Below, piece after piece: positions 187-20,300 of a stretch of 44,818 nucleotides of DNA (positions are counted from its first letter, which is position 1; each line of letters opens with the position of its first letter). This DNA is from Archaeoglobales archaeon (GTDB taxonomy: Archaea > Halobacteriota > Archaeoglobi > Archaeoglobales > Archaeoglobaceae): the NCBI GenBank assembly GCA_029984855.1, contig JARQZL010000031.1:1-44818 (forward strand). The letters are read 5' to 3'. A program made the position numbers and the translations under genes. The notes beneath the pieces were generated by a model that did no database searches, was not told where the DNA came from, and saw only the letters and a program-made list of their open reading frames with translations.

Positions 187-2048
187 GGACAGTTTCAGCT
201 GCTGTTAACGATAATACACAAGCAGGTAGGAAAAATGTAACAATAAGAAGAAAAGAGAAGAGAGTAAAGAAGAGGAGTCTTCTTCCAAAGCTTCTCGACA
301 GAGATGGACATAGAGAGGAAGTGGATAGAAGTATAATAGCACCTGAGCTAATAGAGGTGGAGAAGGGGCTGATAACGGTAAACGGTAATCCAATGGTTTT
401 GAGCTACATCTCTGTCTACCCGGCAAAGGTCTATGAGGGCTGGATTGCCGATGAATTTGCTTGGAAACCGTTCAGACTCGATTTCTCCCAATTCATCGAG
501 CCCGTGAGCGAGGAAAGAGTTATCGCAGAGCTGAACAGGAAAATCACCTCGCTTGAAGGCAAGCTTGCCGAGATGAGGAGGAAGGGGAGAATAGATACTC
601 AGCACATAGAACAGGAGCTCGAATACCTCTACAGATACAGAGAGGAGCTTACAGCAAGGAGGATAAGGCTGTTCACCTTGAGCACGTACTTCGCAATTTC
701 TCCCTTAAAGAATGACAGGGAGGCTGCTGAAGATGCACATGCGGAGTTCATGCAGAAGATGAAGTCTAAAGGTGCCCAGCCGAAAAGGATCAGATACAGG
801 ATGCTCGATGCATTCAAGTGCTTTCTTCCCGAAGGTAAAGATTTGCTCAGAAGGAGAATACTCGTTGACAGCGATGCTGCTGCTTCATGCTTCCCATTCG
901 TTTTTCCTACTATCATGCACCCCACCGGCGTACTCTACGGCTTCGATGCAGCGACTCGAGTTCCAGTCATCATAGACAGATTCAGCTTCGCCGGCCATAA
1001 CGAAATTGTAGTCGGGAAAATTGGAAGCGGAAAATCATTCTTTGTTAAGCTTGAAATGCTGAGGTGGTTCATAAACGATCCTAAGATCAAGATATTCCTC
1101 GTTGATCCCCTTGGTGGATTCACGGACTTGGCCGAGGTTCTTGGGGCTCAGAGAATCGTTGTCGGAAAGGCTACAATGAACCCACTAGACATCATAGTTC
1201 CGGAGGGCAAAAAGCCGGTTGATGTGCTGAGAGAGAAACTAATGGCTTTAATGGAGTTTTTCTCCACGTTTTTCGAAGAAGAAGTTGGAAGCCCAATGGA
1301 CAAGACTGAATCTGGTGTACTAAGAAAAGCTATACAGAAGACGTATGAGGAGAAAGGATTTGGAACTCCAGAGTTTGAACCGCCTATAATAGACGATGTG
1401 ATTGCAAAGCTTGACGATGTTGCTGAAAATCAGGAAGAGCAGAGTGCTGCTGCAAGGCTTAAGTCATCATTACAAGCTTTCTCGCAGAAATCTGAACTGG
1501 GAATGTTTAACGGCAGAACAAACGTGGACATCTACGGTAGAATAGTTTACTTCGACTTCAGCGAGGTTGAAGGAGTTGTGAGAAGTCCTCTCTTACTGCA
1601 TGCAGTGTTAACGTGGATTGATTCGAGAGTGAGAGGAGAGAGTGGCAGAAAGATCGTCGTAATAGATGAGGCACACTACTTCATGAGATACAGGCAGATC
1701 AGAGCGTTTCTGGAGAGGAGTGTGAGACACTCGAGGCACTACAAAGTTGGATATACTCTGATCAGCCAGAGCTTTGAGGAGTTCGTAGGGCATGAGGAGG
1801 GGAGAGTGATCTTAACGAACGCAAACATAGTTGTAATCTTTAGGCTCGATTCTATCCCGCAGGAGGTCAAAAAGATCCTGAACATCTCCAGTTTTGGAGA
1901 GAGGTTTGTAAAGGAAGCTGCACAGGGTAAAACTTCCGGATACTCTTCAGCCCTCATAGCTATTCCAGGGGAGGGGAACTATCACGTTAACGTGCTCGCA
2001 TCTCCGGGTGAATTAGAATTTCTGGGAACCGCTGGGAGAGGAGTTTGA
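183..2048 (+). CDS. VirB4/TraC-type conjugation ATPase
   Basis: This 621-residue protein is probably the motor ATPase of a type IV secretion or conjugation channel at the inner face of the membrane. A basic N-terminal tail is followed by a VirB4-like N domain with a predicted coiled coil at about residues 115-160. The RecA-like motor carries a Walker A at about residues 278-285 (GKIGSGKS) and a Walker B at about 490-496 (VVIDEAH). Length and order match complete VirB4/TraC proteins, so the upstream fragment is a separate gene. The start is firm: GGAGGTG lies just upstream and the ATG overlaps the preceding stop. It overlaps the next gene by a few bases. HerA-type ATPases are more distant relatives, but the long N domain favours VirB4. 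Confidence 0.82.
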   Translation: MRTVSAAVNDNTQAGRKNVTIRRKEKRVKKRSLLPKLLDRDGHREEVDRSIIAPELIEVEKGLITVNGNPMVLSYISVYPAKVYEGWIADEFAWKPFRLDFSQFIEPVSEERVIAELNRKITSLEGKLAEMRRKGRIDTQHIEQELEYLYRYREELTARRIRLFTLSTYFAISPLKNDREAAEDAHAEFMQKMKSKGAQPKRIRYRMLDAFKCFLPEGKDLLRRRILVDSDAAASCFPFVFPTIMHPTGVLYGFDAATRVPVIIDRFSFAGHNEIVVGKIGSGKSFFVKLEMLRWFINDPKIKIFLVDPLGGFTDLAEVLGAQRIVVGKATMNPLDIIVPEGKKPVDVLREKLMALMEFFSTFFEEEVGSPMDKTESGVLRKAIQKTYEEKGFGTPEFEPPIIDDVIAKLDDVAENQEEQSAAARLKSSLQAFSQKSELGMFNGRTNVDIYGRIVYFDFSEVEGVVRSPLLLHAVLTWIDSRVRGESGRKIVVIDEAHYFMRYRQIRAFLERSVRHSRHYKVGYTLISQSFEEFVGHEEGRVILTNANIVVIFRLDSIPQEVKKILNISSFGERFVKEAAQGKTSGYSSALIAIPGEGNYHVNVLASPGELEFLGTAGRGV

Positions 2049-4690
2049 AGAGTGTGATGAGCATGCTGGGATTACTAAAAAAGCTTAGAAAGAGTAAAAA
2101 ATTAGATTCTGAGCATGTACAAGAAAGAAGGGAAGTTAATTATGAAGAACTCTTAACCAACAAGAGGTATGGTGATCCGCTGTATCTGGGCGTATACACT
2201 GACAATATAAGGGGAGACATACACGTTCCAATTAACTTTCAGGACAGATTCCGCCATGTATTCATCTGCGGCGCCACTGGATCGGGGAAGAGCACTCTTC
2301 TCGTTAACATGATCGTCCAGGACATGCACGCTGGCCACGGACTCTGCTTTATCGATCCGAAAGGTGATGCCATTGAAGAAGTTCTCATGCGAGTGCCGGA
2401 GCACAGAATCGATGACGTAATCTTAATCGATCCGGCAAATTACGATAAAGTAGTTGGATTGAACTTCCTTGAATTGCCTAAGAAGAATTTGAGCGATGCT
2501 CAGCTGAATGCAATCAAGGAGGTAATAGTCAGCGACCTCGTAGCTTTAATGAAACAACAGACGAAGATCTGGGGTGAGAGGTTCGGTAGAATTTTTGAAA
2601 CATTAATCAGAGCTATACTTGACTTCAATGAGAGAGCGTCAGAGGAGGATCAGCTGACGTTTCTCGATCTGTATGTTCTTCTTACGGATGAGGAGATAAG
2701 GAACAAGTTTGCAGACTCTGTGAAGGATCCAATCATCAGAGAGTATCTGCTGAAGATAAACGAGATGAAAGAAGATGTGATGGAACCTGTTATTAGACGT
2801 TTGAACGATTGGGTTATGAATAAAGTTGCCAGACAGATTGTTGCACATAGAAAGTCATCATTTGATTTCAGAGAGGCTATCGACTCTGGAAAAATAATCT
2901 TGGTGAGAATTCCAAAGGGTGAAGTTGGAGAAGCAATAATGCAGCTCGTAGGCTTGACAGTTATTTCAAAGATATGGGCTGCCGCAAAGTCGCGAGTCGA
3001 TACGCCACCAGAAGAACGAGTCCCATTCTTCCTATACATCGATGAATTTGCGAATTTTGCGTTTGAAGGTTCAACTTTCGATGAAATTCTATCAGAAGCG
3101 AGAGCTTTTAAGCTCGGGTTAATTCTGGCTACTCAATATCCAAGCCAGCTCTCTCACGAGGTAAGAGAAGCTGTCTACGGAAACTGTGGAACGATCATTA
3201 CTTTCAACCCTCAGAACCCCAACGATGCAAAGGTTCTGATAAAGAGGTTTCCGGGTGTGAAGGATGAAGATCTGCTATCTTTGGGCTTGTATACTGTAAT
3301 GCTACGTTTAATGGTAAGAAATGAGCTATCAGATCCATTTATAATCAGAACTTATCCGCCTACAACCCCAATCAGGAGCAGAAGCGAGATCAACAGAGTT
3401 ATCGAGAGATCTCTTTCGCTTTACGGCAGAGAGCGTATCTCGGAAATGGATCTCTCTGCAAGCCTGAGAAGAATCAAGGAGATGAGCAGGTTCTCGCTGA
3501 AAGATGGTTTTGTGGATGAAATGGTCGAAGTCCTTTACAACCTCGTTATCAAGGGTTTGGAGCTAAATTACAGAAATTTTGCTGAGGAGGCAAAAAGGAG
3601 GGCAATAAGTGTTACTGAGCAACAATACGCCAATCTTTTGGAAATTTTTGATAGAATGGACCTGATAGAACTCAGAAGCGAACTCGTTAAGGGGAAGTAT
3701 ACAGCCAATCAAAAGCCCGATAAAATTAGATCTTACTTCTGGGACGGCAAGTTCAACACAATTCTTGCTGGCTTAATTGACCATAGAAAGCTTGTTGAGA
3801 GAGTTTACGAGTTCTTCACCCAGCTCGGGTTTGTTGTTGAAGTTCCCGTAGCTAGAGATGCTTACATGCCCGATCTACTGCTGAAATACCCTGCTGCGAT
3901 GAACTATCAGGAGATGGACAAAGTTTACAGGGAGATGAATAAGAGTGGAGCATGGCAATTAACGAGAGGGAGGGAGGCAGCTGTTGAGATAGAAACGACA
4001 ACACACACCCGTCCCGGGCAGCTATTGATGAAGTTGAAGAAAGCGTACAGCTCTGGCAGAGTTGCAATATTCGTTGTAATGGGTTCTGGAACTACCGTAA
4101 AAGAGTATACGTCAGTTGCAAGGCAGATACTTCAGGTTCTTACAGATATGAGGGGCAGAAGTGGTTTCTATACTACCGATGAGCCGGAGAGGGATCACAG
4201 GGGCAGAAAGCTTTGGGTGAACAAGCATAGTGGCGAGATAGCGTATGAATCAAACGGTATGCTGTTTAACGTTAAAACCAACGAGTTAGAGTGTACAGTT
4301 AGAGAGGCTAAAGACAAGGGCTGGACTGTTAAAAGGACGGTTTTCGACCCGTACAAGGAGTTTGGAGACGTTATGCCTGAGCAAGGCAGAGATTTTATCG
4401 TGCTTATCTTTCCACCAGATGATTTCGATTTTCCTGTTGTGCAGGTGATAAGAGCGGGAACCGGATTCAAGCTGATTCCGGTAAGGAGGAGTGATTCGGA
4501 GTTCTGGAGAAGGACAATGGGAGAAGAGACTGCAGGAGGAAGAGAACTTACTCCAGCTTTAGAGTATGCGCTTAAGAAGTACTTGAAGGGCGAAAAAGTA
4601 AGCGATGGGAACATAAAAAGAGAGATAGATGAAGATAGGCTGGAAGAGTTGCGTAGGATATTTCAGGATGAGGACAATGACGAAGAATGA
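2045..4690 (+). CDS. VirD4/TraD-type coupling ATPase fused to a PD-(D/E)XK-like domain
   Basis: This 881-residue protein (counted from TTG 2045) has no obvious N-terminal membrane segments. Walker A is G76-T84 (GATGSGKST, K82) and Walker B ends at D333-E334 (LYIDEFANF), followed by a conserved ATQYPSQL sensor motif, as in VirD4/TraG coupling proteins that bring DNA to the secretion channel. After about residue 440 a helical, winged-helix-like stretch leads to an extension (about 590-690) that reads like a restriction-endonuclease fold: helix, a PD at 609-610, a strand with E648-I-E650, a helix, then a hydrophobic strand. The last about 190 residues are unassigned and the tail is acidic. The start is ambiguous: TTG 2045, GTG 2054 and ATG 2057 all follow GGAGAGGAG. 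The ATPase call is strong; the nuclease call is by eye. Confidence 0.8.
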   Translation: MKSVMSMLGLLKKLRKSKKLDSEHVQERREVNYEELLTNKRYGDPLYLGVYTDNIRGDIHVPINFQDRFRHVFICGATGSGKSTLLVNMIVQDMHAGHGLCFIDPKGDAIEEVLMRVPEHRIDDVILIDPANYDKVVGLNFLELPKKNLSDAQLNAIKEVIVSDLVALMKQQTKIWGERFGRIFETLIRAILDFNERASEEDQLTFLDLYVLLTDEEIRNKFADSVKDPIIREYLLKINEMKEDVMEPVIRRLNDWVMNKVARQIVAHRKSSFDFREAIDSGKIILVRIPKGEVGEAIMQLVGLTVISKIWAAAKSRVDTPPEERVPFFLYIDEFANFAFEGSTFDEILSEARAFKLGLILATQYPSQLSHEVREAVYGNCGTIITFNPQNPNDAKVLIKRFPGVKDEDLLSLGLYTVMLRLMVRNELSDPFIIRTYPPTTPIRSRSEINRVIERSLSLYGRERISEMDLSASLRRIKEMSRFSLKDGFVDEMVEVLYNLVIKGLELNYRNFAEEAKRRAISVTEQQYANLLEIFDRMDLIELRSELVKGKYTANQKPDKIRSYFWDGKFNTILAGLIDHRKLVERVYEFFTQLGFVVEVPVARDAYMPDLLLKYPAAMNYQEMDKVYREMNKSGAWQLTRGREAAVEIETTTHTRPGQLLMKLKKAYSSGRVAIFVVMGSGTTVKEYTSVARQILQVLTDMRGRSGFYTTDEPERDHRGRKLWVNKHSGEIAYESNGMLFNVKTNELECTVREAKDKGWTVKRTVFDPYKEFGDVMPEQGRDFIVLIFPPDDFDFPVVQVIRAGTGFKLIPVRRSDSEFWRRTMGEETAGGRELTPALEYALKKYLKGEKVSDGNIKREIDEDRLEELRRIFQDEDNDEE

Positions 4691-5736
4691 TCATGATCAA
4701 GCTATCTGTTCGCAATATAGGGTTGGCTTATCCAATTCTCCAGCTAACACCAGCTCCTCCTTTGCTTAGATTAAGCGGGGCAGAGGCTGGATTTCTTCTT
4801 GCTCATGTTACGAAGAGTAAGCTAGATAGGGCTTGTATCATTGCTGCAAGTATTGCCCTCAGAAGGGATAGAATAGTAGAATCCACGCTTGTTAAGGAAA
4901 CAACTGAGAAACTAAAAGAGTTTGATATTGCTGATAGGATAGCGGGAATTGCTGTGAGAAGGCTTAAGAAGATGGGAATTTTAAGAGGAGATAAAATCTT
5001 ACGAGCTCCTAAAGGCAAGGAAAGAACGATTTCTTTTTACGATGATATGCTGTTTTTAGACTACATTTCAAAAAAGATGAAGGGTTTTGTCTGGTTTAAG
5101 GAAGAAACGTTACTCATAGATGGTGTTGCACTTGCCTATGCGTACTTAAAGAGCGAGCTAAACACAACTCTTAGGGCTGCGAGGCTCTTTGCCGATGAAC
5201 TCAGCAGACAATTCGTGCCAAAAGGGGTTCTAAAGAAAAGGCATGCAAACTTACTTTCAAAGTTTATGACTATGGATGTAGAAGTTTGTAATGATTGCCT
5301 TAGCGGAGAAGAAGAGATTGCTGTGAGAAGCTGTGAAGTTGTTCCAGCCCTTCATAGGTTACTTTCGACAAAAACTGGGAGAGTCGAAGTTAAGCTTCTA
5401 AGGCGAAATCGCTGCAAGTATCCTTCAGGTAAGGTGAAAGAAAAGGTTACAGCAAGAGACGCTCAGAAAAATCTACCTAAAACTGTAAAGAGAGTGTCAA
5501 TTATTGATCCGGAGTTGCTCAGCGTTGCTGACTTTCCTTCTAGTTCTTTCGTTGCTGGTAAACTTTGCGGACTTGCAGTCAGTCATGCTTTGAGTAGATT
5601 GAGGAAGGAAGATGCTATTGCTGCTGATGCTATACTTCAGACAGCTTATAATATAAGCAGGGAAGAGCTAGTAATATCGTTCAGAAACGTTGCAAAACAG
5701 GTATTGGATATCTTTAGGGCGACATTAAGTACGTAA
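4687..5736 (+). CDS. Unrecognised 349-residue protein, last gene of the conjugation-type module
   Basis: Its ATG overlaps the stop of the coupling-ATPase gene (ATGA), so it is probably made in step with it. I do not recognise the family. The N-terminal part is helical and basic, and the middle has a Cys-rich patch (C201, C204 and a third Cys near 217) that could bind a metal. The C-terminal about 80 residues are Ala-rich amphipathic helices vaguely like a cyclin-fold repeat of TFB proteins; this likeness is weak. There are no signal peptide or membrane segments, so it is probably cytosolic. It may be an accessory DNA-processing or regulatory factor of the element, by context only. Confidence 0.6.
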   Translation: MIMIKLSVRNIGLAYPILQLTPAPPLLRLSGAEAGFLLAHVTKSKLDRACIIAASIALRRDRIVESTLVKETTEKLKEFDIADRIAGIAVRRLKKMGILRGDKILRAPKGKERTISFYDDMLFLDYISKKMKGFVWFKEETLLIDGVALAYAYLKSELNTTLRAARLFADELSRQFVPKGVLKKRHANLLSKFMTMDVEVCNDCLSGEEEIAVRSCEVVPALHRLLSTKTGRVEVKLLRRNRCKYPSGKVKEKVTARDAQKNLPKTVKRVSIIDPELLSVADFPSSSFVAGKLCGLAVSHALSRLRKEDAIAADAILQTAYNISREELVISFRNVAKQVLDIFRATLST

Positions 5737-5854
5737 GTAATTCTACCAAAATTTTAATTTTGCCAACGAATAAAAACCATAACAATTTTATCCTACCAAA
5801 AAGTGAAGGAAATGATAAAGAGAATTTGGGGCTGGCTCTACACCTTTTCCTTTA
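5737..5854. other. AT-rich boundary between the element and tRNA-Cys
   Basis: This non-coding stretch is the likely junction between element and chromosome. A short frame on the plus strand starts at ATG 5812 and runs through the antisense of the tRNA to a stop at about 5907, giving a PGPGFEPG-type reading. That reading is like the tRNA-overlapping part of SSV-type integrases. It is only 31 codons long with no integrase N domain before it, so I treat it as a tRNA antisense artefact or, at most, a decayed remnant. No direct repeat of the tRNA end is visible. Confidence 0.35.
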
Positions 5855-5925
5855 AGCCAGGGCCCGGATTTGAACCGGGGTCCGCGGATCTGCAGTCCGC
5901 TGCATAGCCCCTCTGCCACCCTGGC
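5855..5925 (-). tRNA. tRNA-Cys (GCA)
   Basis: Read on the minus strand the sequence folds as a full cloverleaf. The acceptor stem is GCCAGGG paired with CCCTGGC, the anticodon stem GCGGA/TCCGC encloses loop CTGCAGA (anticodon GCA), and the T arm is CCGG-TTCAAAT-CCGG. The discriminator base is U, as conserved in tRNA-Cys. CCA is not encoded and there is no intron. Its 3' end faces the conjugation-type module, so its 3' half is the probable attachment site of that element. Confidence 0.95.
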
Positions 5926-5959
5926 CTGCGTATTATCGGTTGGCCTTTGAACTCAACGA

Positions 5960-13427: not shown

Positions 13428-15888
13428 TTCTCACACCTCTGCAGAGATTGAATAGCTCGACGAGCTCTTTTCTTCCGCCTCTTGCGTCCCCGTATCTTGC
13501 AGGCTCGAAGAGTGACAGTATCTCCCGGGCATTATTAAATCCCTCAAGCACCTCTCTTGCCGTAGCATGCTTTAAACTCCCTTTTTTACCCTCAACGCCC
13601 TTAACAAATTCACCGAATATTTCAGCCACGGCTCTTCTGTAATTCAGTATTCTGAGCTTCAGTTCTTTTCTCTCTTTAACCTTTGTCCTTTCCAGCCGTT
13701 CAGCAACGAGGATGTGCTCTCCTTCATCTTGAAATTCCGCTCTGAAAACAAGTCCGTTTTCTCCAGCTCCAACGTATTCACCGTCGAGGGCAAGTCTGAG
13801 CATACCTTTTCCTTTTACAGTAACTTCGACCTCATCACCCGGAAGCCAGATGTTCGGCATCTGGAACTCGAAGGTGATTGCGTCCTCTTTTTTGAGGAAT
13901 TTCGCCACTGCAAACGCAATTACAGGCAGTGGAAGCAGCAAAAGCCAGAGAGGCAGCTGTCTGTTTATTATAGTCCTGGATGGCAGGTGGAACTCATCCC
14001 CGGGGTAGTATATCTCCAGTCTGCTCTCGTTGAATCTGACCTTTGCCACTCCGCCTGAAGCGAATACGGGTCTCCCATTCACGTAGAGCATCCCCTCAAG
14101 CAGACCCTTCGAATCTCTTAGATGTATGCTGACGATGTCCCCCATAACTCTCGTCTCTATCTCTGTTGGCTCCTTAACTCTGAGCTGGAAATGCTTAGAA
14201 TATCCAAACTCCGGAACGAGGCACGTCAGATTGATTGTTCTTGCCATGGGAACCTCTGCATGGATATGCCCAGAGACAGTGAGGTTAACTCCCTTACCCC
14301 TTATCAAAAGCGTCGTATCCACAGGCTTGCCGTTGAAGTAAACAGTTGCGTTAGCATTCCAGATTCCCGCTATTGCCGAGAGGTTGTCAATGCTGACCGC
14401 TACATCTCCCGCCTCAACCTCTTTTTCGATGCTCGCAGGGAGTATGAGGTTCTCCTCTGAACCGGGATAGTAAACCCTAATTCTGTGCATACCCTTTGTA
14501 AGGCTTACGCCGAACTCAAAACTTCCGTTAAACTTTTTCTCATACTTCACTCCATCAACAAATAGCTGGACTGTTCCGTTTACAGGTTTATTCGCCAGAA
14601 CCTCCCCTTTAATTCTACACAGTCCTGCAGCAACTCTTTCTGGGATGTCCAGATTTATCTCCGGCTTGCCGTATATTCTGACGACGGGGTCGCTCCATGA
14701 AGAAGCGAAAAGCAGGCTTCCCGTGTAATGAGCCACAACGTGATACTCACCGGTTGTGTTCACTCTAATGCTGGCAGAGAACAGGCCGTCCCTCACGGGT
14801 ACAAGGGAAAGAAGCCTGCCATACTCTTTTTTATCCTTTTTCAGATATATCTCCACATAGCCGGACGGCTTGAGAGATGCTGAAGAAACAACACCTCTCA
14901 CACTGAGATTTTCACCACTTTTTATGACCGGATCAACGTACGTTATGTCGGTTGTTGTCTTTATCTTCACGGGTGAGGGTGTGGGGTCAAATTCTATCCA
15001 TCCAGCATCAAACTTCACTTCAGCCCAAGCGTGAGCCTGAGATGCAAAAACCGTCTGGTTGTACTCAACCGGCCTTGCAAGATAGCCAAAGACCATTCTT
15101 GCAGGAAGGTTTACGGAGCGGCACAACATTACAAAGGCTGAAGCGAAATGCTTGCAGATGCCTTTCTTCTTGACAAAAAGAAACTCATAAACTGGCGCAT
15201 TGCTAAAATTTTCTGGCCCGTATCTGTAGTTCTTTTTGAGATACTCTTCGATCATCCTTGCTTTCTCATAGTCATTCCTTGCTCCTTCCGTTATTTCTTC
15301 AGCGAGCTTTTTTATCTCCTCTCTTTTCTCACATGTGACGGCAAGGTATCTGCCATCATTTACGGCATTTCTGGCATCTACGTGGTGTGCAGATGAGAAG
15401 GCAACGTATGAGTCTTCAAGCCTGTCGATGAAATATGTGGAGGTCTCTGAACTGTACTTGGCATTTACAGTTACGTAAAAAGTGTCCCTGGCCACGGGTA
15501 TGTGCCCTTCAAATGGAACCACTGGTGTAACTCTGTACCTTGTGAAAGGTGTACCGCTTCCCTTGCTCCCGTACTGCGTCTTCTCTTCAAGCCACACACC
15601 ATTGACGTAATCCTTTCCGGTGTAGAGGCGGAGGTGGTTCGTATACGAGTTTAATCCCTCTACAAAGAAAACGGGGACTTTTGGTGGGTTGCTGGAGTTT
15701 TTAAGATTGCACATGTCGTTAGAATATGAAACAGGGACTATTGCAGCCGGTTGTTTTACCTGATTTCCACCACCGATGAAACCCGGAAGCCCGGTATTGC
15801 TGAAATCGAGAGATGAAATGAAACCGGCAAGTAGGGATGCTGCGAGAATGAAAAAGAGGACGGGAACTATTTTTAGGGCATCTTTCAT
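13420..15888 (-). CDS. Membrane-anchored transglutaminase-like protein with Ig-like repeats
   Basis: This 822-residue protein has an N-terminal signal anchor (about residues 7-26), then a cell-surface region with the transglutaminase-like core. Its catalytic triad is visible as C245 (KKGICKHFASAF), H286 (SQAHAWAEV) and D301 (IEFDPTPSP). Several Ig-like or beta-sandwich repeats follow (about 330-640), then a transmembrane helix (LPLWLLLLPLPVIAFAVAKF) and a cytoplasmic helical C-terminal domain. Members of this superfamily cleave or crosslink peptide bonds. It is the first gene of the operon, so the MoxR and DUF58 proteins likely handle the cytoplasmic side of the same envelope system. A weak TATA-like site precedes the ATG. 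Confidence 0.88.
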   Translation of the reverse strand: MKDALKIVPVLFFILAASLLAGFISSLDFSNTGLPGFIGGGNQVKQPAAIVPVSYSNDMCNLKNSSNPPKVPVFFVEGLNSYTNHLRLYTGKDYVNGVWLEEKTQYGSKGSGTPFTRYRVTPVVPFEGHIPVARDTFYVTVNAKYSSETSTYFIDRLEDSYVAFSSAHHVDARNAVNDGRYLAVTCEKREEIKKLAEEITEGARNDYEKARMIEEYLKKNYRYGPENFSNAPVYEFLFVKKKGICKHFASAFVMLCRSVNLPARMVFGYLARPVEYNQTVFASQAHAWAEVKFDAGWIEFDPTPSPVKIKTTTDITYVDPVIKSGENLSVRGVVSSASLKPSGYVEIYLKKDKKEYGRLLSLVPVRDGLFSASIRVNTTGEYHVVAHYTGSLLFASSWSDPVVRIYGKPEINLDIPERVAAGLCRIKGEVLANKPVNGTVQLFVDGVKYEKKFNGSFEFGVSLTKGMHRIRVYYPGSEENLILPASIEKEVEAGDVAVSIDNLSAIAGIWNANATVYFNGKPVDTTLLIRGKGVNLTVSGHIHAEVPMARTINLTCLVPEFGYSKHFQLRVKEPTEIETRVMGDIVSIHLRDSKGLLEGMLYVNGRPVFASGGVAKVRFNESRLEIYYPGDEFHLPSRTIINRQLPLWLLLLPLPVIAFAVAKFLKKEDAITFEFQMPNIWLPGDEVEVTVKGKGMLRLALDGEYVGAGENGLVFRAEFQDEGEHILVAERLERTKVKERKELKLRILNYRRAVAEIFGEFVKGVEGKKGSLKHATAREVLEGFNNAREILSLFEPARYGDARGGRKELVELFNLCRGVRNA

Positions 15889-16062
15889 TCATTCTGAAGA
15901 GGGAAATGAATGATTTTAACTTTTTGCTCTAACAGAGTGAAAAGAACCTAACCAAAATAAAGTTTCATGAGAAGGCCGTAAAGGACAAATACCTGAAGAG
16001 TTAACGGCTTTCAGTTTAGAGTTAAAAATACAGATTTTAAATTCAGATTTGGAGGTGTTAAC

Positions 16063-17133
16063 TTGAAGAAAAATGTAGATTATATAAAGAGCGTAGGAAT
16101 TCCACGAATAATTGAAGTTTCTGAAACGGCAAGAAAGAAAGTCAAAAGCTCGGTTGAAGCCATAGGCCGTTCATCAGTTTTAATATTAACTGGAGAAAAC
16201 GTATACAATACCGTTGGCAAAAACATAGAGAAAAAACTGAAAGACTTGCTTCTCAAAACGATGCTGGTTTCATCTCCACGAATCGAGGAAGTCAGAAAAA
16301 TAGAGTTCGAAATGGAGCTGGATGAGGTAGATTGTGTAGTAGGTGTTGGAGGGGGCAGGGTTCTGGATGTGGCAAAGGTTGTGGCAACCGAGACGAACGT
16401 ACCGTTCGTAAGCGTACCTTCAACAGCTTCACACGACGGAATAGCATCACCCATAGCAAGCTTTAAAGAGGATAACAGACCGGTTTCGATTTCAACAAAT
16501 CCTCCGGCTGCAGTTCTGGCTGACATAACCGTGATAAGAAACAGCCCCATCCGGCTCATAAGGGGTGGCTATGGTGATTTAATTTCAAACATAACTGCTG
16601 TGAAAGACTGGAAGCTTGGTAAGGAAAAGAAAGATGAAGAGTACAACGAAGTTGCAGCTTCAATGGCCTTAATGCCCGCTCAGCTTTTACTGAGAGAGGC
16701 AGAAACTCTCGATTTGAAAAACCCATCACATCTCGAACTGCTCGTGAAAGGATTGATTTTAAGCGGGGTGACGATCTCGGTTGTTGGCAGCAGCAGGCCC
16801 GTTAGCGGTGCCGAGCATAAATTCAGCCATGCCCTCGACTACCTTGGATACGGTACAGGCTTGCATGGAGAGCAGGTTGGAATAGGGACAATCATAATGG
16901 AGTATCTGCATGAGAAAGCGTATGGAGAGGGTAACTGGGAACTCATAAAGCAGTCCCTCGAAAACATCAGAGCGCCGACAACTGCAAAGGAGATAGGGCT
17001 GGCAAAGGAGCAGGTTATAGAGGCAATCGAATACGCCAAGAGGATAAGAAGAAAGAGGTATACGATTCTTGAGGATCAGAACCCAAGTAAAGAAGAATTC
17101 GAAATCGCAATAGAAAAGACAGAAGTGGCCTGA
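16063..17133 (+). CDS. egsA: sn-Glycerol-1-phosphate dehydrogenase
   Basis: This 356-residue enzyme reduces dihydroxyacetone phosphate to sn-glycerol-1-phosphate, the stereospecific first step of archaeal membrane lipid synthesis. The NAD(P)-binding motif GVGGGRVLDVAK and the STASHDGIASP, SGAEHKFSHAL and LHGEQVGIG segments, which carry the zinc ligands, are all present. Length is normal for EgsA. I chose the TTG at 16063 because GGAGGTG sits five bases before it and no ATG matches. A TATA-like TTTTAAATTC lies about 25 bases upstream. It stands alone, with the transglutaminase operon divergent and the cytochrome operon downstream. Confidence 0.95.
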   Translation: MKKNVDYIKSVGIPRIIEVSETARKKVKSSVEAIGRSSVLILTGENVYNTVGKNIEKKLKDLLLKTMLVSSPRIEEVRKIEFEMELDEVDCVVGVGGGRVLDVAKVVATETNVPFVSVPSTASHDGIASPIASFKEDNRPVSISTNPPAAVLADITVIRNSPIRLIRGGYGDLISNITAVKDWKLGKEKKDEEYNEVAASMALMPAQLLLREAETLDLKNPSHLELLVKGLILSGVTISVVGSSRPVSGAEHKFSHALDYLGYGTGLHGEQVGIGTIIMEYLHEKAYGEGNWELIKQSLENIRAPTTAKEIGLAKEQVIEAIEYAKRIRRKRYTILEDQNPSKEEFEIAIEKTEVA

Positions 17134-17160
17134 TTTATATCATGACCGTACTTTGGCAAA

Positions 17161-17190
17161 GCTTAAGTAATTCTTATAATCTATATAGTT
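17161..17190 (+). promoter_or_regulatory. Promoter of the cytochrome operon
   Basis: Two overlapping TATA-like elements, CTTAAGTAA (about 17162-17170) and CTTATAAT (about 17173-17180), precede ATG 17194. The first lies about 28 bases before the ATG, the usual spacing for an archaeal leaderless transcript. No Shine-Dalgarno sequence is present before the start, which agrees with a leaderless message. Confidence 0.5.
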
Positions 17191-17193
17191 ATA

Positions 17194-17904
17194 ATGAGCA
17201 TTGACTTCCCGAAAGGTCTGTTGATTGTAATAATCCTTTTTGCAGTAGGTATCCTTGTCCTCCCCTCCACAACCTCACTTTTTGCCGGAGAACATATGTG
17301 GTATGATTTAAGCAACGAGAAAAGTGTGCCATGTGTTAAGTGCCATGCAGACGTGTACGACGAGCTCAAACACAGTGCAAACCACTCAATGGTTGATATG
17401 AAAGCAGGAGTTGACGGAGGGGAGTGTCTTGTCTGCCATAGGGCAAATACGAGCATAACGTATGCAAGTGTTAGCGGAGGGTACACCACAGCAGAGCCGG
17501 GCAAAGAGGCACACGCTGCAACGATAGTGAGCTGCGGTTACTGTCACTTTAATTCGACAAACCCGTTCAACGCTCCGGTTGCTGGAGGGTTCGGGCTGTC
17601 AGATTTTGCATCAAACCCCGGAAACGACACGGGAATAAATGCGTCACACTACTCCTTCGTGATAAGGTCAAGAGAATCCGGTCTGCTATACAACGAAAGT
17701 GAGAGCTGTGTTGCATGCCACACCACTGTGAATATTACAATGAACTTCACAGCAGCTGTTGAATCAAAAATCCTCGTGAACGATACCTACACGTCATCGC
17801 AGTCTCACTGGGATGTCAAGAGTATTGATGCCAGTAACTACACAACATATCATATATATGTTGCAAATAAAACAGCAAAAGGAAGTTATGAGGTGATACA
17901 ATGA
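17194..17904 (+). CDS. Tetraheme c-type cytochrome, exported; candidate filament subunit
   Basis: This 236-residue protein has a signal or anchor segment (about residues 8-31, possible cut after FAG) and four CXXCH haem-binding motifs at C47, C78, C114 and C172. Extra His residues (for example H34, H60, H64, H107, H152, H205 and H220) could be second axial ligands. About ten N-x-S/T sequons lie on the exported part, implying heavy N-glycosylation. Four haems, sequon density and an archaeal order with known cytochrome nanowires (Archaeoglobus veneficus) make a filament-forming cytochrome plausible, but this is an inference. The gene overlaps the decaheme gene by 4 bases (ATGA). Likely role: electron transfer outside the cell membrane, perhaps to metal oxides. 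Confidence 0.88.
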   Translation: MSIDFPKGLLIVIILFAVGILVLPSTTSLFAGEHMWYDLSNEKSVPCVKCHADVYDELKHSANHSMVDMKAGVDGGECLVCHRANTSITYASVSGGYTTAEPGKEAHAATIVSCGYCHFNSTNPFNAPVAGGFGLSDFASNPGNDTGINASHYSFVIRSRESGLLYNESESCVACHTTVNITMNFTAAVESKILVNDTYTSSQSHWDVKSIDASNYTTYHIYVANKTAKGSYEVIQ

Positions 17905-19235
17905 AAGCGATCCATATAATTCCTCTTCTGCTTGCAGTTTCTGCCTTACTGCTTCTCACGTCAACAAACGTCGTTACACTCTTTCAGGGATCGCACCAGA
18001 TTATTGAAATAAGTGGCAATGGGAACAACATAAACTGCACCTCCTGCCACCCGCAGATAGCTGATCAGCTAAGACGTTCAGCCATACATTCAAACTTCAA
18101 GTGCGAGGAGTGCCACAGGTTAAGGCAGACTGCTGAAGGTAAAACGATAGTTTATGCGGAGCACAATGCAAGTGGTATTTTTGCAGGAAATCAGAGTCAC
18201 GCTGCCTACACGCCCCGCTGTTTGGATTGTCATGGTGGAAATGGTATATATGTCAACTACACCGGGGAAACACGTAAAGCACCGGTGGCAAAGGCCTTCA
18301 ATGAATCAAATTACGGAAGTGACTATTCTGCCCATAAGCAGTTTGTTTTAGATGCCTTAAACTGCAATCTATCGGTTGGAGAGAACGAGGCATGCATTGC
18401 ATGCCACACGAACTATTCCATCACAATTGATTACAGCTACTTCTGGAATGTAAGCTATACAAAGAGTGGCAGTTCATGGACACTCGCAAACTTCAACTAC
18501 AATGGAACAAGAACGTACTCTGTCTCTTACAGCAGGACTGGAGCAAAGCATGAATTTTTAAATTTGAATGATATAGACTGCACAAAATGCCACAAAAATA
18601 TTTACGACGCTCTGGTGAACGGCACTTCCGATTCCCCCTACAACGACCTCGCTCATGCTCCTGTTGAGATAGATTACTATGACAGTGCAGCAGTTAAGAA
18701 AGATCATGACTGGCCAATCGATAACTACTGGGGGCATACAAGATATCACTACATCCCCTCTACCTACAGAGCGAGCTGGGTTAACACCACTTACTGCATC
18801 AAGTGCCACAATGTTACAAGATATGCAGATGAGAATCCTTCAGATGCCACTACGTACAACCTCAACAGTGTCATCAGCGACACGAACTCTACGAGTGTTC
18901 ATGCGGTGGAGAAAATCAGGTGCACGACATGCCATGGATACGGCAAGGCGAAAGACCCGTACAGTGTAATAAGCAGCAGTGGTTACTGGGGTAATGAAAA
19001 TGGACACAGAGCTTTTATGAACCAGACAGAGAGTAAAGCTCGAACGTTTAGTGGAGACCTCTGTATGGGGTGTCATGAGGCTGCCGGACATAAAGGGTGG
19101 GAAGATGGCTGGTGCAATGGCTGTCACAGCTATCATGGATACTATGACTGCGGTGGTTGTCATTCAGACACATATAGCTACAACATAAGCATAAACATAG
19201 AATCTGAGCCCTCAGGAAATGTGTCACGGTCTTAA
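17901..19235 (+). CDS. Decaheme c-type cytochrome, exported
   Basis: This 444-residue protein has an N-terminal signal anchor (about residues 5-22) and ten CXXCH motifs, in order CTSCH, CEECH, CLDCH, CIACH, CTKCH, CIKCH, CTTCH, CMGCH, CNGCH and CGGCH. The last three crowd into about 45 residues. Many sequons and aromatic residues mark an exposed surface protein. The C-terminus ends at SINIESEPSGNVSRS, which resembles the opening strand of a PEGA-like domain and stops abruptly, so a longer ancestral form may have been truncated. It is co-translated with the tetraheme protein and could pass electrons to it or cap it. Confidence 0.9.
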   Translation: MKAIHIIPLLLAVSALLLLTSTNVVTLFQGSHQIIEISGNGNNINCTSCHPQIADQLRRSAIHSNFKCEECHRLRQTAEGKTIVYAEHNASGIFAGNQSHAAYTPRCLDCHGGNGIYVNYTGETRKAPVAKAFNESNYGSDYSAHKQFVLDALNCNLSVGENEACIACHTNYSITIDYSYFWNVSYTKSGSSWTLANFNYNGTRTYSVSYSRTGAKHEFLNLNDIDCTKCHKNIYDALVNGTSDSPYNDLAHAPVEIDYYDSAAVKKDHDWPIDNYWGHTRYHYIPSTYRASWVNTTYCIKCHNVTRYADENPSDATTYNLNSVISDTNSTSVHAVEKIRCTTCHGYGKAKDPYSVISSSGYWGNENGHRAFMNQTESKARTFSGDLCMGCHEAAGHKGWEDGWCNGCHSYHGYYDCGGCHSDTYSYNISINIESEPSGNVSRS

Positions 19236-19517
19236 TTCACCGCCTGTTTCTTCTTTATCCTGAGTTCTTCTGATGATGCCTTCTGATGCTTTCAGTCCTC
19301 TGAATTCCCGGCTCTTTAATGAATGCAAATGCCCCTTTACAGCATTCCTGATGCGCAGATGCAAGGGAAACACAGAGAAGATGATGGTTGTTGCAAGCAT
19401 CAGTGCAACACGGTAACAGTAGAGGCTGCCCGCATTGCTGCATGCCAGTAAACTTGTATTTTACTTTTTATTTTTGACTTTTCACGGATAAAATAAAAAA
19501 ATAAACAAGATTATATC

Positions 19518-20300
19518 TCAATTTATCTCAATCAAACTGCCAGCCCCGATGAGCTTGAACCTGTCACCGAGCTTCGATGAGAGAATTGCCTCACCCTTAA
19601 ACCCTGTGCAGTGGCACGGGGCAAGGAGTTCAACCTTCTTTGCAAGCCATTCTGCAATTTCAACGACATCTCTGTCCTTGAGAGATACAAGATGCGTTCC
19701 TCCTATCACAAATCGCACCTCATCACCGCAAACCTCCTCTGCATATTCAACCGTGTTTCTTACGCCCGCATGACAGCAGCCGAGCACAAGTGCAATACCT
19801 CTATCTGTTTTCACGGCAAGGGACTGATCATCTGTTACCTTATCATCCACAAGTTTTCCATCCCTCAATACTCTACCAACTCCAACATCAATGTGATTCC
19901 GGGGGATCTCTCCAAGGGCATAGATGTGCTTTGCAACTTCAACCGGCTCACGATGTTCCACAATCCTTGCACAGCTCTCGATCTCCTCTCTGCAATAGGG
20001 TATGCCTATATAAACACCTCTATGATACCTCGGAAGCCACGCATCGGGGTGCATGTAGATGGCTGGATTTGTTCTGAGGAATCCCGGCAAACCTCCCGTG
20101 TGGTCGTAGTGTCCGTGACTCAAAACAATAGTATCGAACTCAATAAGACCGAGCAATAAGGCGTTGTTGTACGCAGCAATCTTCTGGCCAGCATCAAAGA
20201 GTACATTGTCCACAGCAGCAGAAAATCCCCATTCTGCAAGCAGCCCCTTAGGGCGCAGGTTGACAATTTTGTTATCTGCCAGTATGCGTATCTGCACCAT
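19518..20300 (-). CDS. Metallo-beta-lactamase-fold hydrolase (MJ0301-like)
   Basis: This 260-residue protein has the MBL-fold metal motif SHGHYDHTGGLPG (HxHxDH), then GCCHAG and GGTHLVSL and the C-terminal APCHCTG, which together supply the metal ligands. The overall pattern matches COG1237, whose archaeal members include the dihydropterin aminobenzene-phosphate synthase of methanopterin synthesis. That function would suit Archaeoglobales, which use tetrahydromethanopterin, but the family is mixed and I cannot separate subtypes by eye. It is monocistronic and divergent from the GNAT gene, with TATA-like TTTATATATAC between them. Confidence 0.8.
   Translation of the reverse strand: MVQIRILADNKIVNLRPKGLLAEWGFSAAVDNVLFDAGQKIAAYNNALLLGLIEFDTIVLSHGHYDHTGGLPGFLRTNPAIYMHPDAWLPRYHRGVYIGIPYCREEIESCARIVEHREPVEVAKHIYALGEIPRNHIDVGVGRVLRDGKLVDDKVTDDQSLAVKTDRGIALVLGCCHAGVRNTVEYAEEVCGDEVRFVIGGTHLVSLKDRDVVEIAEWLAKKVELLAPCHCTGFKGEAILSSKLGDRFKLIGAGSLIEIN

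Follow-up and report, generated by a model that had tools for sequence, protein, structure and literature searches.

The ATP-driven pump that archaea use to push DNA into other cells is a coupling ATPase of the VirD4/TraG/TrwB type (PF10412, PF02534); reviews describe the bacterial coupling proteins as having transmembrane and all-alpha domains rather than a nuclease tail (PMC7431656). In bacteria, MOBC relaxases, including MobC of CloDF13 and TraX of pAD1 (NCBIfam NF041423; Pfam PF13814, Replic_Relax), form a rare and little-studied class of conjugation nicking enzymes that are PD-(D/E)XK-related, i.e., related to restriction nucleases. The prototype TraX has an N-terminal winged helix, showed no covalent DNA intermediate, and carries a restriction-enzyme-like active site that was confirmed by mutagenesis (PMC12857230). 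MobC is a separate protein of about 245 aa whose gene usually lies directly downstream of that of the coupling protein. In contrast, archaeal conjugative elements have been stated to lack a recognized relaxase (PMC9905601, PMC6563490, PMC12857230, PMC4390865), and the tail of the TraG-like ATPases of the Sulfolobus conjugative plasmids and of pT33-3 was not recognized as a nuclease in the papers examined. Other systems that invite comparison are Hjc, Mrr, and further PD-(D/E)XK nucleases, which share the predicted fold class, and the phage large terminases, which join a translocating ATPase to a nuclease of RNase H-like fold and are a functional analogy only, no sequence relation having been tested.

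The window analyzed here is the whole 44,818-nucleotide contig JARQZL010000031.1 (positions 1 to 44,818, forward strand) of an Archaeoglobales archaeon (GCA_029984855.1), the nearest named relatives being Archaeoglobi and Archaeoglobus metagenome assemblies. At its left end lie three genes on the forward strand whose starts and stops overlap: a 621-aa VirB4-like ATPase (183-2048), which is the partner motor of the transfer channel, an 881-aa coupling ATPase (2045-4690; TTG start as listed, exact start uncertain), and an unknown 349-aa protein (4687-5736). The first matches the NCBIfam CD1110-family VirB4 model with E=1e-57, albeit below the cut-off of that model, and Pfam AAA_10 and DUF87 above cut-off. 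The 349-aa protein has no Pfam hit, recurs beside the coupling ATPase in two other genomes (G017 and G051) as 87-88% identical copies, and has a C-terminal part that recalls the cyclin fold of TFIIB by eye only. These genes are followed by a tRNA-Cys (5854-5926, reverse strand), a possible integration site of the element as inferred from position only.

The surroundings fit an integrated conjugative element. The genome holds three copies of the coupling-ATPase gene (contigs C80, which is the window, C91, and C141), the other two being 95% and 64% identical to the window copy. Close copies in G017 and G051 sit before a gene that reads by eye like a leuC-type dehydratase large subunit, whereas in genome G012 the gene ends beside a tRNA-Gln. 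The left end of the window element is off the contig, and attachment sites could not be shown. A recurring gene order is pilin-like gene, membrane protein of about 280 aa, VirB4, and coupling ATPase, and the VirB4-coupling ATPase order of the window is the same in G012, G017, G020, and G051. Isolated short remnants of the coupling-ATPase tail (aa about 787-818, 81-88% identical) with stop codons, perhaps scars of past insertions, are found in G017 (contig C22, 49716-49841) and in a further genome, G005 (contig C25, 25966-26088). At another locus (L034), large proteins with tandem Ig-like (Big_7) repeats (15199-18546 and 18552-19730, both on the reverse strand) lie near the transfer genes and could be surface adhesins for mating contact.

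The coupling ATPase combines a VirD4-type motor with a winged helix, a PD-(D/E)XK-like domain, and a C-terminal beta domain. The motor (2222-3364, about aa 60-440) passes the Pfam cut-offs for TrwB_AAD_bind (PF10412, 35.2 bits against a cut-off of 20.5) and T4SS-DNA_transf (PF02534, 34.4 bits against 20.1). N-terminal transmembrane helices, for which no dedicated test was made, are not obvious by eye, and coupling proteins without them are known (PMC7431656). The initial annotation had described, behind a RecA-like motor and a helical linker, a helix, PD at 609-610, E648-I-E650, helix, strand pattern, with E-x-E where E-x-K is usual. This observation is confirmed: P609-D610 (3869-3874) and E648-I-E650 (3986-3994), the predicted metal ligands, are exactly at these positions, and the order of elements agrees with the AlphaFold2 model. 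The one adjustment is that the helical linker is mostly a predicted winged helix (3509-3712, about aa 489-556).

The AlphaFold2 model, built with 22 sequences (mean pLDDT 77.8), places these residues in an alpha-beta-beta-beta-alpha-beta core, mostly with pLDDT 72-94, within a domain spanning aa 578-700 (3776-4144). The winged helix is followed by helix 578-594, strands 597-599 and 611-614, an insertion, strand 645-649, helix 657-669, strand 673-679, and a further helix, such that D610 and the E-x-E fall at the usual active-site places. The absence of an alpha-beta nuclease core from a structure prediction had been named in advance as grounds for rejecting the assignment, and the model does contain one. 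Foldseek searches of the 441-aa model against PDB and BFVD returned no hit with E below 0.001; MarR/PadR-type winged helices were among the hits to the winged-helix region, and nuclease-named viral hits ranked high without being significant. A 155-aa single-domain model, in which Hjc and tRNA-splicing endonucleases appeared, also gave nothing significant, but that model was poor (pLDDT 49.6), probably because only five rows were given. Comparison with solved structures thus leaves superfamily membership undecided, and the fold rests on topology, motif position, and the profile link described below. Searches of the tail against Pfam, NCBIfam, and PDB sequences found no relative, and no Pfam or NCBIfam family covers the domain. 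It is followed by a conserved, confidently predicted beta-rich domain (4169-4489, aa 709-815) of unknown function, which has no Pfam match and in which W724 and P769 are invariant in 39 sequences.

The fusion and its acidic residues are conserved over a wide range of archaea. All seven archaeoglobal proteins keep P, D, E, and E. A profile of the tail found relatives in haloarchaeal coupling ATPases of about 900-1570 aa, and a collection scan brought 39 loci, nearly all haloarchaeal plasmids or contigs, whereas scans of viral contigs with the coupling ATPase and with MOBC found no relatives. In the 39 aligned coupling ATPases of this second homologue set, H580 (3782-3784), D610, E648, and E650 are identical. 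Some haloarchaeal versions are much larger: at loci L145-L150 and L152 (Halorubrum, Haloferax) and L147 (Halobaculum), giant open frames of 2039 to more than 3000 aa, some Halorubrum and Haloferax proteins exceeding 3000 aa, join the coupling motor and the nuclease-fold domain to further segments. Most of these frames run off the fetched locus; the Halorubrum one scanned has weak DnaG-like primase matches (DNAG_N E=6.5e-5, below cut-off) and the Halobaculum one a weak Pox_D5 match, which is reminiscent of bacterial relaxases joined to helicase or primase domains.

Proven conjugative plasmids in which no relaxase has been recognized carry the same kind of tail. Ten plasmids, including Sulfolobus pKEF9, pNOB8, pARN3, and pSOG1, Acidianus pAH1, and Thermococcus pT33-3 (here the 103-kb plasmid of strain 33-3), encode a coupling/TraG-like ATPase of 1000-1370 aa that ends in a winged-helix-like stretch followed by R/K-P-D … I-A-x-E-I-E-S, with all these acidic residues invariant. 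These proteins belong to a different motor branch, and the Sulfolobales/Thermococcus type has G in place of H580, which is otherwise invariant in the archaeoglobal/haloarchaeal branch. The Sulfolobus protein is labeled both TraG-like and TrbE-like in the literature, and curated models do not cleanly separate VirB4 from VirD4 for it. The plasmid tail matches the window family by profile (P=3e-5, score 44; highest of 100 column shuffles about 24), and a second archaeoglobal coupling ATPase (locus L040) bridges the two with P=1.5e-12 and 8.5e-9. Other archaeoglobal ATPases of the pT33-3 kind show the same pattern. A more distant coupling ATPase of 756 aa (locus L038, 14204-16471, reverse strand) also ends in an I-E-I-E-H segment but does not match the archaeal tails or MOBC significantly and possibly represents an independent fusion. 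Loss of conservation of D610, E648, and E650 across homologues was the other outcome that had been specified as counting against the nuclease assignment. Over 92 aligned archaeal tails from Archaeoglobi, Halobacteria, Sulfolobales, and Thermococcus, D610 and E648 are identical in 92 and E650 in 91 (one D), although many of these rows are close relatives and do not amount to 92 independent tests. The nuclease region is under strong purifying selection, with a dN/dS of about 0.04 between close copies that is close to that of the motor, so the domain is in use.

Profile comparison links the tail specifically to MOBC relaxases. Because mobC is frame-broken in the CloDF13 record NC_002119, intact homologues from other plasmids were used, and in the nine MobC proteins aligned H114, P147, D148, E161, and E163 are invariant. 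Comparison by hhalign aligned the archaeal tail to MobC from the wing through the helix after E-x-E, with H (H580 against H114), PD, and E-x-E in register and with P=7.3e-5, 2.4e-5, and 2.2e-6 as the sets increased. The score of 46.7 compares with a maximum of 22.3 in 150 column shuffles of MobC, and Hjc and Mrr nucleases do not match. These P-values are for one comparison and carry some selection, as MOBC was chosen after its motif had been noticed. The Sulfolobales tails alone do not match MOBC significantly (P=0.048), and a simple hmmsearch with the MOBC model does not find the archaeal tails significantly; only profile-profile comparison does. Furthermore, the curated models NF041423 and PF13814 do not hit, the R-x-x-K that follows E-x-E in MobC (R164 and K167, invariant in the nine proteins) is not conserved in archaea, and the archaeal protein has an extra C-terminal domain. 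The domain is accordingly described as MOBC-like and not as a proven member of the class. In seven of nine MobC loci, a gene annotated as a coupling or type IV secretion ATPase ends just upstream of mobC, so the archaeal protein looks like that gene pair joined.

The reading best supported, and considered more likely than not, is that the tail is the DNA-processing (relaxase-like) enzyme of archaeal conjugation, built into the motor. In this model, the winged helix binds a transfer origin, the metal-dependent active site (D610, E648, E650) cuts the DNA of the element there by hydrolysis, as in MOBC relaxases and without a covalent tyrosine link, and the same protein, as a ring-shaped VirD4-type motor, loads the strand and pumps it through the VirB4-powered channel. 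The fusion, the fold model, the conservation of the active-site residues, and the specific similarity to MOBC come directly from the analysis, while binding, cutting, the site, and the strand transferred are inferences; no transfer origin was identified, and neither metal-dependent nuclease activity nor nicking at oriT was assayed. The proposal of the initial annotation that a nuclease joined to the coupling ATPase could be the DNA-processing enzyme is supported, and its premise that archaeal conjugation-like elements generally lack a recognizable relaxase is confirmed in the literature cited above. The unusual E-x-E is the pattern of MOBC relaxases, which explains the odd motif and strengthens this idea. 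Standard relaxases were sought elsewhere in the carrying genomes, and no PF03432, PF08751, or PF02486 relaxase was found in the five genomes with the element, nor any PF13814 match in the four of them searched. The simplest account is that the enzyme was missed because it is hidden in the motor and has E-x-E instead of E-x-K.

The main rival, judged unlikely but not excluded, is a terminase-like cut-and-pump machine in which the nuclease domain makes double-strand cuts while the motor translocates double-stranded DNA, so that transfer would not start with a nick at a transfer origin. The ATPase-plus-nuclease layout is that of large terminases, and PD-(D/E)XK enzymes often cut both strands. Moreover, it has been suggested that archaeal conjugation may move double-stranded DNA (Greve et al. 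as cited in PMC6563490). However, the closest profile relative is MOBC, a relaxase class, and single-stranded DNA has been argued for in the related import pili (PMC9905601). Less likely still is a catalytically dead PD-(D/E)XK fold used only to hold DNA or partner proteins. There is no conserved lysine after E-x-E, and some PD-(D/E)XK proteins are inactive, but D, E, and E are invariant while other positions drift, MOBC relaxases also have E-x-E here, and BamHI is another E-x-E enzyme. Least likely is a part in defense or repair (HerA-NurA-like end resection or anti-plasmid cutting), for although PADLOC mad8 and HerA models match the motor and HerA-NurA was proposed to make the DNA substrate in archaeal DNA import (PMC9905601), the PADLOC matches cover only the motor, the neighbors are VirB4, a pilin-like protein, and a membrane protein, the same fusion occurs in pNOB8, pKEF9, pSOG1, and pT33-3, and VirB4/VirD4 mutation abolished pT33-3 transfer (PMC12857230).

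MobC is a separate protein, while here the MOBC-like domain is the tail of the motor. No paper found describes this domain, although the search did not extend to several key papers and an earlier mention cannot be excluded, which makes its novelty likely but not certain. A broader possibility, held somewhat more likely than not, is that the long-missing relaxase of archaeal conjugation is a nuclease domain built into the coupling motor and shared by Archaeoglobi, Halobacteria, Sulfolobales, and Thermococcales. It would start transfer without a covalent protein-DNA link, so that the motor is its own relaxase (or a terminase-like cutter) and DNA selection and DNA pumping are one enzyme. If the enzyme is the tail of the coupling ATPase, the question becomes directly testable with three point mutations in a known gene. 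It would also explain how archaea start DNA transfer, link them to the MOBC class, give a search profile for conjugative elements in archaeal genomes, and show a motor-nuclease fusion reminiscent of phage packaging enzymes.
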